Assembly (NCBI GenBank): GCA_003661385.1
Contig: QMWA01000061.1
Span: forward strand, 1 to 8,718
Source of the DNA: Thermoproteota archaeon
GTDB taxonomy: Archaea; Korarchaeota; Korarchaeia; B14-G2
DNA length: 8,718 bases
Direction: 5' to 3'
The translations under genes and the position numbers were made by a program. A model generated the notes under the pieces. The model ran no database searches. It saw only the letters and a program-made list of their open reading frames with translations, and was not told the origin of the DNA. Numbering within the stretch: the stretch's first letter is position 1; every line of letters begins with the position of its first letter. Shown one piece after another: positions 3,137 through 8,718 of this stretch.

Positions 3137-4106
3137 AGGCTAGTGGGCATAGTGGGTCTGGGCCATCAAATGTCCCCCAGGCCTTGAGTGACCTAGCATA
3201 GCACCCACCTAAGCATATCTCCCTAGTGTTGCAGTTCAAGCATGGCTCTCTGAGCATAGGGTTCGCTACTCTTCTAGAGAGCTCATGTGACTCTGCTTCT
3301 TCCCAGGCTTCTCTCAAGCTCCTCTCTCTGACAGATGTCAGCCTGTAGTCTAGCACATCACATAAGAGTATTTCTCCACTTACTCCTATGTCGATTACGC
3401 TAGCCACTCTACATGAGTAGCTGGCTGTGTGGTGTGCTATGCTTGCTGCGAAGGGCATGCACCACAGGCTCGCTGGCATGGAGGTCTCTATGACAGCCTT
3501 GTCTACCTCAGTGATCACCTCGTATACGCGGTCTGCTGTCAACTGCCTTAGCTTAGCTCCTCTTCCAGAGGGCATTAGCGGTATGAAGCTGAGGAAGCTT
3601 GCCCCAATGCTGTCAGCCAGCTCAAATACCCTCCCTATGCTCTTTGGTGTGTCTGGCGTAAGCAAAGTCACAGTAGAGAACTCTACTCCATGCTTAATCA
3701 TGCTCCTAGCTGCCTCCTCGACGTACTTCCATGAGCCTCGCCCTCTTATTGCCTCGTGCTCTTCTCTTACACCATCCATGCTGAGGTATACGTGAGCCTC
3801 TAGCCTAGCTAGCCTAGATGAGATGCTGTCGCTCATAGCTATTCCACTTGTGACCACTGTAGCATATATCCCGTGGTCAGCTGTCTCCTTGAGAAGGCCT
3901 AAGAAGTCCTTTCTAAGAAAGGGTTCTCCTCCAGAGAACCCTATATGAGCCACTCCAAGCTCTGCCGCCTCCCCAATGATCCTTAAGCATTCTTGTGTGC
4001 TAAGCTCGTCGGCTCCTCTAAACTTAGCTGCGTAGCAGTGTATACACGATAAGCTGCATTTCCCAGTGATTATCCAGATGATATCCGACATAAAGACCCC
4101 CAACAT
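3099..4106 (-). CDS. Radical SAM protein with C-terminal SPASM domain, substrate unknown
   Basis: A 335-residue radical SAM enzyme. The N-terminal CSLSCIHC gives the CX3CX2C [4Fe-4S]/SAM motif (Cys17, 21, 24), followed by GGEP at 59-62. The C-terminus matches SPASM spacing exactly: C232-X11-G-X4-C249, then CX2CX5CX3C at Cys289, 292, 298 and 302, and a last Cys320, enough for two auxiliary Fe-S clusters. SPASM enzymes modify peptides (anSME, PqqE, MftC) or tetrapyrroles (NirJ, AhbD). The PLMPSGRG segment resembles the P.GRG stretch of the heme-pathway group, but this does not settle the substrate. No precursor peptide or heme gene is seen nearby. Start choice: ATG 4106 follows AAGGTGA by 11 bases; ATG 4091 follows GGGGGT by 4 bases; the in-frame TTG at 4127 has no binding site. 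The gene converges on the MBL-fold gene. Confidence 0.88.
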   Translation of the reverse strand: MLGVFMSDIIWIITGKCSLSCIHCYAAKFRGADELSTQECLRIIGEAAELGVAHIGFSGGEPFLRKDFLGLLKETADHGIYATVVTSGIAMSDSISSRLARLEAHVYLSMDGVREEHEAIRGRGSWKYVEEAARSMIKHGVEFSTVTLLTPDTPKSIGRVFELADSIGASFLSFIPLMPSGRGAKLRQLTADRVYEVITEVDKAVIETSMPASLWCMPFAASIAHHTASYSCRVASVIDIGVSGEILLCDVLDYRLTSVRERSLREAWEEAESHELSRRVANPMLREPCLNCNTREICLGGCYARSLKAWGTFDGPDPLCPLASRTLPETRRAAV

Positions 4107-4382: not shown

Positions 4383-6648
4383 CTATATTTCGAAGGATGG
4401 CCCTGTCCACTTTTCTACTGGGTAGAGGTTCTTTTCGTATAGCTTTGGCTGTGGTAGCTCTAGTGGTAGCCCCTTTCTCTTTCTTATCTCCATTATCTTG
4501 TCTACTTGCATTGCTTTGGGCAGCTCTCTGAAGCCGCTTGGCTCATACCCCCAGAAGCAGCGGCCTTGTGTTGCTGACCTGAGTAGGTCTACTAGGTCTT
4601 GGGTTTCTGCTGCTGGTATCTCCCCTGTTATTCTTACGAGGTCTTCCATGTGCTGTATCTGCTTTATCGTAGCTCTCTTCTTGTTTAATATAGACATTAC
4701 TTGGCCCTCTGTTCCTATTGGTGTTGTTATGTCTATTCTGAGGATCGGCTCGTATAGCCTTGGTCTTGCTGTGAGGAATGATATGTTGAGTGCTGCCATC
4801 ACCATGGATCTTACCTCAGAGTACCCTGTGTGAGCTGGGTCTGTGTGTACTACTGCATCTGTTATGACTGCCTTGACTCCTAGCGTGGGCTCTCTGGCGA
4901 GCGTTGCCCCATTGCAGAAGTCTATGAAGTTTGACTCTATGTAGGACTTTATCCTGTCCAGCCTCTGGGCTCCTCTTGTGTTGTCTACTAGGATGTTCGT
5001 TCCGTATATGAGCCAGATTCTTCTGGCTTCCCTGGAGTCCCATCCAGCTTTCTCGTGTAGGATTTTCGCCCTCTCTTTCCTGTCCATTTTGTCTGTTATC
5101 ACGCCTTTTCTTATGAGGTCTACTGTGACTGGGTCTAGCGGCTCCACATATATCTTTATCCTGTTTAGGGCGTTGTTAGACTTGGTTTGGACCTCCATTC
5201 CCCTTTGTGTTGGTACTTCCCTGTAGACTATTATTGGTGGTGAGACCTTTATCCTTACCATCTCGTTTATTCTCTTTGTTAAGATCTCGAGCTGTAGTGG
5301 GTCTATTCCGGAGAGTATGTACTCCTTTGTCTCCTCGTCTATTCTGAACTGTGCTGTTGGGTCTGCTGAGACCCATAGCTTGACCCACTTGCCTAGCTTA
5401 TCTAACTCCTGTGGGTTGAGTGGCTTTATCGCTATCGAGACGACAGGCTCAGCAGCGTACTTTATCTCTACAAATGGTGTGACACCTTCCATGTCAGGAG
5501 CTACTATGGTTTCTCCAGCTGGACAGTGGAACCCATAGAGTGCGAAGAGGTTCCCTGCTGGTATCTCTGGTATGTCTAGTATGTCTGTTATCTCCATGAC
5601 TCCTAGTCTCTGTACCCTCTCTAGCCTCTTTGCTGTGAGCAGTCTGACCTGCTCTCCTGCTCTGAGAGTCCCTGAGAAGACCCTGCCTATTAGAACTACT
5701 CTCTTCGTCCTTGGGTGTATGAAGAGCTTTGTTATCATGGCCATCAGTGGGCCATCTGGGTCTATTCCTCTCATGGCCTTTCCAAGCTCGGAGTCCTGGT
5801 CTCCTGGCCATATCCTCCTTATCTTCTCTGGCTGGGCTTCCTTTGGTGATGGGAGGTGCTTTACTATCATTCTTAAGAGAGGTTCATCTAGTGGCAGGTT
5901 TTCTCTGAGCCATTTTTCCTCGCCTTTCTCGTACTTCTCGAATATGACCTTCGGGTCTATTCCCTTCTCCTTTAGGATGTCTATTGTAAAGCCCCAGCCG
6001 TGCTTTGCTGACCCTATTGCTATGGTGCCGTCTTGGAACGATACTCTCCACCCTGTGTCTGGAGCGTACTTCTTGATCAGGGAGTTTACGTCCATTGCTA
6101 TCTGCTCAAGCCTCTTACCTACCTCCTTTGGTGTGAGCCTGAGTTCCTTGATCAGCCTATCGACTTTGTTTATGAACAGGACTGGCTTGCACCTCTCTTC
6201 TCCTACTGCTAGCCTGATGTTTGTCTCAGTTTGAGTCATAACTCCCTCCAGCGCGTCTACCAAGAGCACTACTCCATCGCTTCCTCTCAGTGCTCTTGAG
6301 ACCTCCCCTGTGAACGATATATGACCTGGTGTGTCGTTCAGCTGGAAGAGGTAGTTTTGCCCCTGGTAGTCATATGAGAGCAGAGCTACGCTGGTGAATA
6401 TCGTTATCCCTCGTTTGCGCTCCTCCTCGTCACTCGACCTGCCTGCACGCGCGTGCAGGCAGTTAGTCGGTGAGGAGGAGTTCTCCAGCTGCATCCGGGC
6501 TCATCAGCCCAGCTCTCTTCAGCAGGTAGTCTGTTGTAGTGGTCTTTCCGTGGTCTATGTGGGCTACTATTGAGAATATCCTCTTATTTTCTAGGGCTGT
6601 ACTCCTAACCATCTGTGCTATCTCATCTGGGTTCTTCACTCTGACCAT
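4383..6648 (-). CDS. fusA: Translation elongation factor 2 (aEF-2), interrupted by a 31-nt BHB intron; exons 6648-6464 and 6432-4383
   Basis: EF-2 is the GTPase that moves tRNA and mRNA through the ribosome after peptide transfer. Exon 1 encodes residues 1-61 plus two bases, with the P-loop AHIDHGKTT (29-37). Exon 2 supplies RGITI (switch I region, 69-73), DTPGH (95-99), NKVD (150-153), the GSAKHGWGF region, and domains II-V. Joining the exons gives 2235 bases, 744 residues, normal for archaeal EF-2, and TDYDEEERKRGITI across the junction, the expected family sequence. Without splicing, exon 1 stops at TAA after 61 residues, and the long downstream frame (ATG 6494) would lack the P-loop. The start is ATG 6648, 6 bases after AGGTG; a GTG at 6657 would add three residues but overlaps that site. 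The diphthamide histidine is present (His596), but its loop reads DPAHTGYSEV rather than the usual D..HRGPAQ. The stop is TAG at 4383. Confidence 0.93.
6433..6463 (-). other. Archaeal bulge-helix-bulge (BHB) intron in the EF-2 gene, 31 nt
   Basis: On the minus strand the intron consists of A (6463), a perfect 24-base palindrome (6462-6439; a 10-bp stem capped by GCGC), GTCG (6438-6435) and AG. Exonic CGAC (6469-6466) pairs with intronic GTCG to form the central 4-bp helix. The bulges are TAA (6465-6463) and AGT (6434-6432), giving the canonical 3-4-3 motif. Outside, CTCCTCCTC (6480-6472) pairs with GAGGAGGAG (6428-6420), with C6470-G6431 closing next to the bulge and a small internal loop between. 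Cleavage after the second base of each bulge (TA|A, AG|T), the usual tRNA splicing endonuclease site, joins TA to T to make a Tyr codon and restores the frame. The length (3n+1) explains the frame shift. Splicing is inferred from structure and protein restoration; no RNA evidence is available. Confidence 0.9.
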
Positions 6649-7755: not shown

Positions 7756-8718
7756 ATGATAGCTGAGCCAGCTGTTATGTTCAGGGACAGGAGGACACTA
7801 GACTTAAGCTATGTTCCAGAGGAGCTTCCATGCCGTGAGCAGGAGAGGAAGCAGCTACTTGAGTCTCTGCTGCCAGCAGCTGCTGGAGAGCATTCCCGTC
7901 AGGTAGTGATTTCAGGTGAGTATGGTGTCGGGAAGACGGCGCTAGCTAAGAGAGTCGGCAGAGATCTAGCTTCCATTGCAAGGGAGAACAGGTACAAGTT
8001 CAGGTATATCCACGTGAACTGCAGGCATAAGTCTCCGCTGATTGTGCTAGCTGACATCGTATGGAAGTCCTTTGGCAGGAGAATACCGACTAGAGGCTGC
8101 TCTCTAGAGGAGCTGCTCCAGCACTTCAGATACTCGGTCATCGAGGAAGGCGTCAGCCTCCTTATAGCTCTAGATGAGGCCGACTCCTTCTGGTATTATG
8201 GTCGTGATGGAGAGGTTCTCCTCTACAACCTAGTTAGGTTCTCTGATGACTCTCTTGACTCTGACCTCCCCTCCCTATCCCTGATGCTGGTATGCCGACT
8301 AGACTTCTTGCTCAAGGAGACACTGCATGGCGATACGCTAGCTCTGCTGAGAGACCAGGTGTACCTGAGGAAGTATACCCTAGAGCAGCTTCGTGAGATA
8401 ACAGAATACAGGGCATCTAAAGCCCTGTACAGGGAGGCATACGACAGTGAGATAGTAGACTTGATAGCCAGGGTAGCTGAGCCCTTTGGAAGCGCCAGGG
8501 TGGCCTTACAGACCCTCAGGCTCGCTGCTGAGAAGGCTGCAGCTGACGGCTTGCCCAGAATATACCCTGAGTACGTCAGGGAGGCTGCTGAGTCAGTCTG
8601 TCCAAGAGACGGCTGGGGGATTAGTGAGCTGACTACGGAGCAAGCTACCATCCTGCTAGCAGTAGCTTCCCTTCTGAAGAGCCGAGAGAAGCCTTATGTG
8701 AAGACAGGCGATGTCTGG
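7756..8718 (+). CDS. cdc6: Orc1/Cdc6 family replication initiator ATPase (3' end beyond window)
   Basis: Archaeal Orc1/Cdc6 proteins bind origin boxes and help load the MCM helicase. The 321 codons in the window contain the N-terminal VPEELPCREQE segment (about 20-30), typical of the family just before the AAA+ domain; Walker A GEYGVGKTA (54-62); Walker B LLIALDEAD (135-143); a sensor-2 type GSARVAL (245-251); and the beginning of the winged-helix domain (LTTEQATILLAV, from about 292). Where the family usually has a sensor-1 asparagine (ISN), this protein reads LVCRLDFL (178-185), and the following arginine-rich segment is also altered, so it is a divergent paralogue. The frame is open to the right edge; about 70-90 residues are probably missing. 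ATG 7756 is chosen because the conserved segment follows at the usual distance. The gene was read directly from the sequence because no stop codon lies inside the window. Confidence 0.88.
   Translation, partial: MIAEPAVMFRDRRTLDLSYVPEELPCREQERKQLLESLLPAAAGEHSRQVVISGEYGVGKTALAKRVGRDLASIARENRYKFRYIHVNCRHKSPLIVLADIVWKSFGRRIPTRGCSLEELLQHFRYSVIEEGVSLLIALDEADSFWYYGRDGEVLLYNLVRFSDDSLDSDLPSLSLMLVCRLDFLLKETLHGDTLALLRDQVYLRKYTLEQLREITEYRASKALYREAYDSEIVDLIARVAEPFGSARVALQTLRLAAEKAAADGLPRIYPEYVREAAESVCPRDGWGISELTTEQATILLAVASLLKSREKPYVKTGDVW

Follow-up and report, generated by a model that had tools for sequence, protein, structure and literature searches.

A predicted 31-nt BHB intron in an Asgard-type elongation factor 2 gene and similar 30-nt inserts in Lokiarchaeal EF-2

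In the open-access literature covered here, the experimentally confirmed introns of archaeal mRNAs are those of cbf5, and putative introns in other genes have been mentioned without confirmation (PMC2738675, 2009). The cbf5 pre-mRNA introns of Crenarchaeota (Watanabe 2002; Yokobori 2009, PMC2738675) are short BHB introns that interrupt a conserved gene for an RNA- or translation-related protein, and the intron predicted here in the gene for elongation factor 2 (EF-2) shares these features. The gain, loss, and movement of BHB introns is a question left by the same work (PMC2738675). No report of an EF-2 intron was found in the open-access literature; subscription papers and preprints were mostly outside this coverage, so an earlier description is possible. 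Within the open-access literature, EF-2 would be a further conserved gene with a BHB intron beyond cbf5, the sole confirmed precedent found.

The window analyzed here is an 8,718-nt stretch of a contig (C61) from a draft archaeal genome assembly of 1.74 Mb in 206 contigs that is 91% complete. Its EF-2 gene runs on the minus strand from 6648 to 4383 and is split by a 31-base insert (6463..6433). Exon 1 (6464..6648, minus strand) comprises 61 codons plus the TA of codon 62, includes the P-loop AHIDHGKTT, and was delimited by translation of the spliced frame and by its match to Odinarchaeia EF-2, which starts at residue 1. Exon 2 (4383..6432, minus strand) is an open frame for residues 62-744 that takes in what remains of the G domain and runs to the stop codon, with a 100% self-match and Asgard homology. 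The insert lies after the P-loop (DHGKTT) and before switch I (RGITI), where the original prediction had located the break in the frame. The unspliced frame encounters a TAA stop at the 5' splice site directly after TD, at a codon count of 61. Cutting at the canonical BHB positions joins codon 62 as TA|T (Tyr) and yields, on translation, a 744-aa frame that reads ...LLLTDYDEEERKRGITIF... across the junction. This protein contains AHIDHGKTT, NDTPGH, NKVD, and HTDPAHTG and is thus a full-length GTPase with the G motifs and the domain IV His tip, although the tip sequence (HTDPAHTGY) deviates from the canonical HEDxxHRG. The spliced protein is 61% identical to Odinarchaeia EF-2 from residue 1 and 64-65% identical to Baldrarchaeota EF-2, and the junction is gap-free in both comparisons. 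Translation and the Asgard alignment therefore bear out the proposed restoration of TDYDEEE and of 744 residues.

The intron ACTGCCTGCACGCGCGTGCAGGCAGGTCGAG (6433..6463, minus strand) is defined by its sequence, its fold, and the 744-aa frame that results from its removal. The central helix is formed by CGAC in exon 1 (6466..6469) and GTCG in the intron (6435..6438), with 4/4 pairs. Two 3-nt bulges flank this 4-bp helix on opposite strands. The 5' bulge, TAA (6463..6465), is assigned by geometry and translation; its predicted cut, TA|A, falls between 6464 and 6463, and the same triplet is the in-frame stop at which an unspliced message would terminate. The 3' bulge, AGT (6432..6434), is assigned by geometry, and its predicted cut, AG|T, separates 6433 from 6432. 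With each bulge cut two bases in, the resulting mature sequence is gap-free against intron-free homologues. The remainder of the intron (6439..6462) is a perfect 24-nt palindrome that folds into a 10-bp stem with a 4-nt loop, and both the palindromic stem and the bulge-helix-bulge arrangement of the original prediction are confirmed. Outside the bulges, CTCCTCCTC in exon 1 (6472..6480; Leu codons) is the 9-bp complement of GAGGAGGAG in exon 2 (6420..6428; Glu codons), so that exon codons CTC CTC CTC pair with GAG GAG GAG, and a small internal loop separates this outer helix from the bulges (all elements on the minus strand).

The folding energy of the insert is -37.2 kcal/mol compared to -19.9 ± 3.1 kcal/mol for dinucleotide shuffles (z = -5.6), and 0 of 200 shuffles fold as well, which shows that the fold exceeds chance. 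A scan of both strands of 842 kb of the same genome returned 11,336 BHB-geometry matches before the helix-length filter, and the EF-2 insert ranks first by its combined inner and outer helices. Chance hits are plentiful under loose criteria and were not accepted as further protein-coding BHB introns; besides EF-2, no match in the 842 kb paired a long inner and outer helix with convincing frame restoration. The insert totals 31 nt, compared to the hundreds of bases in the catalytic core of group I and group II introns, and its host gene is EF-2 rather than cbf5. The insert is very probably an EndA/RtcB-type BHB intron in EF-2 mRNA.

The splicing endonuclease and RtcB genes named as a check by the original prediction are both in the genome. 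PF01974 occurs twice in one 370-aa frame that encodes a two-domain EndA, and its motifs KYGVDFMFY, GIDHGPY, and SVRKTF, which carry the conserved catalytic Tyr, His, and Lys, align with endonucleases of known structure (3p1z). The RtcB homologue (PF01139, E = 1.6e-134) is on a small contig (C181, locus L124) and has a one-base frame break at ~3428-3575 on the minus strand, with 11 nt where 12 are expected. The break is probably a sequencing or assembly error; a second intron was ruled out, as the frame shifts by a single base without inserted sequence. Of 26 tRNA genes that ARAGORN lists in the scanned part of the genome, 18 are predicted to be intron-bearing. A strict BHB-geometry match is present in only 8, so these tRNA introns are weak support for active splicing.

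In the proposed mechanism, the EF-2 pre-mRNA would fold into the outer helix, a 3-nt bulge, the 4-bp helix, a second 3-nt bulge, and the hairpin. EndA would cleave past the second base of each bulge to free the 31-nt hairpin, and an RNA ligase, most likely RtcB, would seal the exons within codon 62 (TA|T, Tyr). Translation of an unspliced message would end at the 5'-bulge TAA after 61 residues, and EF-2 synthesis would depend on the tRNA-splicing enzymes.

A scan of named genomes yielded Lokiarchaeal EF-2 genes with an in-frame stop at the position of the window insert. Inserts of similar form were found in a survey of 227 Asgardarchaeota genomes, 30 of which were then followed up; counts are among the matches listed. 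At least ~18 Lokiarchaeal genomes among these matches, all from one GTDB family (f51), have 30-nt EF-2 inserts with in-frame stops. The coding nucleotides before the cut number 189 (TDSD|DEE), 183 (TD|SD), or 90 (AH|IDHGK, in the P-loop), and an additional site is DHG|KTT. The predicted cut in the window gene is after nt 185, a position close to the Lokiarchaeal sites at 183 and 189 but not identical to either. The window intron is thus similar to the Lokiarchaeal introns in its BHB form and near-same site and differs in exact cut position. In every gene tested at the nt 189, 183, and 90 sites, all four central pairs form and the 9-bp inner stem is mostly perfect; removal of the insert at the canonical positions reproduces the intron-free protein in each. 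A comparison of 12 distinct 30-nt introns shows compensatory changes in the helices: at three of the four positions of the central helix and at several inner-stem positions, both partners of a pair vary (for example TA/AT, GC/CG, GC/TA). Three genes (L164, L165, and L172) have 30-nt BHB introns at nt 90, and L172 has two inserts in one EF-2, the second at the TDSD site. The DHG|KTT insert (L167, the same gene as L069; coding nt ~102-133) is also 30 nt long with a stop and a BHB-like fold; if cut strictly at the canonical positions, it would lose 28 nt and leave the frame broken, which places it outside the canonical geometry. In one other Lokiarchaeal EF-2 (L177, genome G183) the match begins at residue 72-74, and exon 1 is absent or in another frame. 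Further archaeal EF-2 matches with stops at different positions end in normal C-terminal stops and were set aside.

The comparison of relatives with and without the insert that the original prediction proposed could be made, as both kinds exist. In four pairs of intron-bearing and intron-free relatives (83-93% nucleotide identity over ~1.5 kb), the genes differ in length by exactly 30 nt at the site, the length of the intron, and have no other internal gap. The existence of Lokiarchaeal EF-2 genes with and without inserts decides the case for the window intron. An assembly or amplification artefact, in which sequencing generated a false hairpin, might be suspected from the perfect palindrome and the draft state of the assembly, but random error would not give an in-register 4-bp helix, complementary exon codons, and a position ≤6 nt from the Lokiarchaeal introns. 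The same insert type also occurs in independent assemblies from several projects, including one intron-bearing Lokiarchaeal gene on a single-contig chromosome (L100 = CP070805), and an artefact is accordingly considered highly improbable.

Translational bypassing, in which the ribosome skips a hairpin without RNA splicing, is known from T4 gene 60 and the byp elements of some yeast mitochondria, where the bypassed element is a short hairpin insert opening with an in-frame stop. The window insert is likewise a short hairpin that starts with an in-frame stop, and a GAC codon flanks it on either side. However, a hop from GAC to GAC would produce TDEEE, which lacks two residues of the conserved TDYDEEE, whereas the BHB cuts give the exact length. 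The take-off and landing codons at the P-loop site (CAT | ATT) are mismatched, and bypassing leaves the conserved 4-bp helix and 3-nt bulges at three sites unexplained. These points make bypassing a very unlikely explanation compared to BHB splicing.

The exon sequence around the BHB introns also pairs. The flanking codons GCTCC...GGAGC in intron-bearing Lokiarchaeal genes pair across the intron, and the flanking-exon duplex energy has a median of -10.1 kcal/mol in intron-bearing genes compared to -4.0 kcal/mol in intron-free genes (Mann-Whitney p = 1.5e-6; the genes are phylogenetically related and not independent). The stronger exon pairing in intron-bearing genes suggests that flanking exon sequence is kept for RNA structure.

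Mapped onto the EF-2 tree, intron presence and absence requires at least 13 changes, and at least 9 if the nt-189 intron is considered by itself. Identical 30-nt introns are present in three non-sister EF-2 genes (L082, L086, and L117), hinting at conversion or mobility. The patchy pattern fits repeated loss, gene conversion, or intron mobility. The recurrence across Asgard-type EF-2 genes is more interesting than the single window intron. We tentatively propose, as a reading with less than even chances, that Asgard-type EF-2 hosts recurrent and possibly mobile BHB mini-introns of ~30 nt within the first 65 codons, from P-loop to switch I, that are often gained and lost and may couple translocase supply to the state of tRNA splicing. 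Recurrent EF-2 introns in Asgard lineages near the origin of eukaryotes would mean that tRNA-type splicing of mRNA is wider than thought, and standard gene callers would truncate EF-2, a common phylogeny marker, in such genomes. Patchy introns at several sites form a natural system for the study of BHB intron gain, loss, and movement.

The window genome encodes one EF-2 paralogue on another contig (C14, L036:2588-4639), and no further Asgard-type EF-2 was found in this genome, which leaves the paralogue as the sole other EF-2. A second intact EF-2 gene had been named in the original prediction as grounds for doubt; the paralogue is instead divergent, 683 aa long and 33-37% identical, and it lacks the His tip motif of domain IV. 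The second EF-2 of Odin- and Lokiarchaeia is similarly degenerate with the tip motif gone, and that of Baldrarchaeota keeps part of the tip and lacks the canonical HRG. The paralogue lacks the tip and the window gene has it, and therefore the intron-bearing gene is the more canonical copy. The existence of the paralogue makes a caveat necessary to the description of EF-2 as a universally required GTPase. With that caveat, the window EF-2 would be essential for the cell. The presence of the second EF-2-like gene would allow the window gene to be a dying pseudogene whose activity is supplied by the paralogue. Yet the window gene is otherwise intact across 744 codons and 61-65% identical to functional-looking Asgard EF-2, the presumed replacement has lost the tip motif like the second copies in Odin- and Lokiarchaeia, and pseudogene decay leaves the geometry of the insert unexplained. 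We consider decay improbable, with only a slight chance of being correct, and retain the BHB intron as the preferred reading.

EF-2 paralogues occur in archaea without diphthamide genes, according to the statement in PMC10307638 that cites Narrowe 2018. A PF01866 search detected no dph1/dph2-type diphthamide gene in the window genome, which thus resembles the dph-lacking archaea described in that statement (PMC10307638) in combining the lack of a PF01866 match with a tip-less second EF-2. As set against those archaea, the window intron is located in the His-tip copy (HTDPAHTGY) and not in the degenerate paralogue.

The EF-2 tree tentatively places the window EF-2 beside Baldrarchaeota (SH-aLRT 94; long branch). 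Among the 28 other genomes of the host GTDB phylum, 27 have an ordinary EF-2, one has no match, and none has an Asgard-type EF-2. The window genome, which GTDB places outside Asgardarchaeota, combines an Asgard-type EF-2 with a degenerate paralogue and undetected PF01866. The Asgard-type EF-2 may have been acquired by transfer, or the lineage may be misplaced. The tetranucleotide composition of contig C61 is average (rank 14 of 62, within a continuous gradient in PCA), and the adjoining endonuclease IV gene has its nearest matches (60%) in genomes of the GTDB phylum to which the host is assigned. Given this composition and affinity, a misbinned contig is not favored, and C61 probably belongs to the bin. 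An Orc1/Cdc6-like ATPase, named by sequence appearance, occupies 7756-8718 of the window and runs off the contig end.

The cbf5 introns are like the predicted EF-2 introns in their cut sites, past the second bulge base, in giving a product that equals the intron-free homologue, and in their patchy distribution among relatives. The EF-2 motif adheres strictly to the canonical form; most introns of cbf5, by contrast, contain an unconventional BHB that is cut by a hetero-oligomeric endonuclease (PMC2738675). Unlike the cbf5 introns, the EF-2 introns belong to Asgard-type EF-2 lineages, are 30-31 nt long with a single stem-loop, and occur at several sites in a very patchy distribution. The BHB introns of archaeal pre-tRNAs have the same motif as the EF-2 introns and the same predicted enzymes. 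The EF-2 intron differs from these in its mRNA substrate, where failed splicing would cost the cell EF-2 rather than a tRNA.
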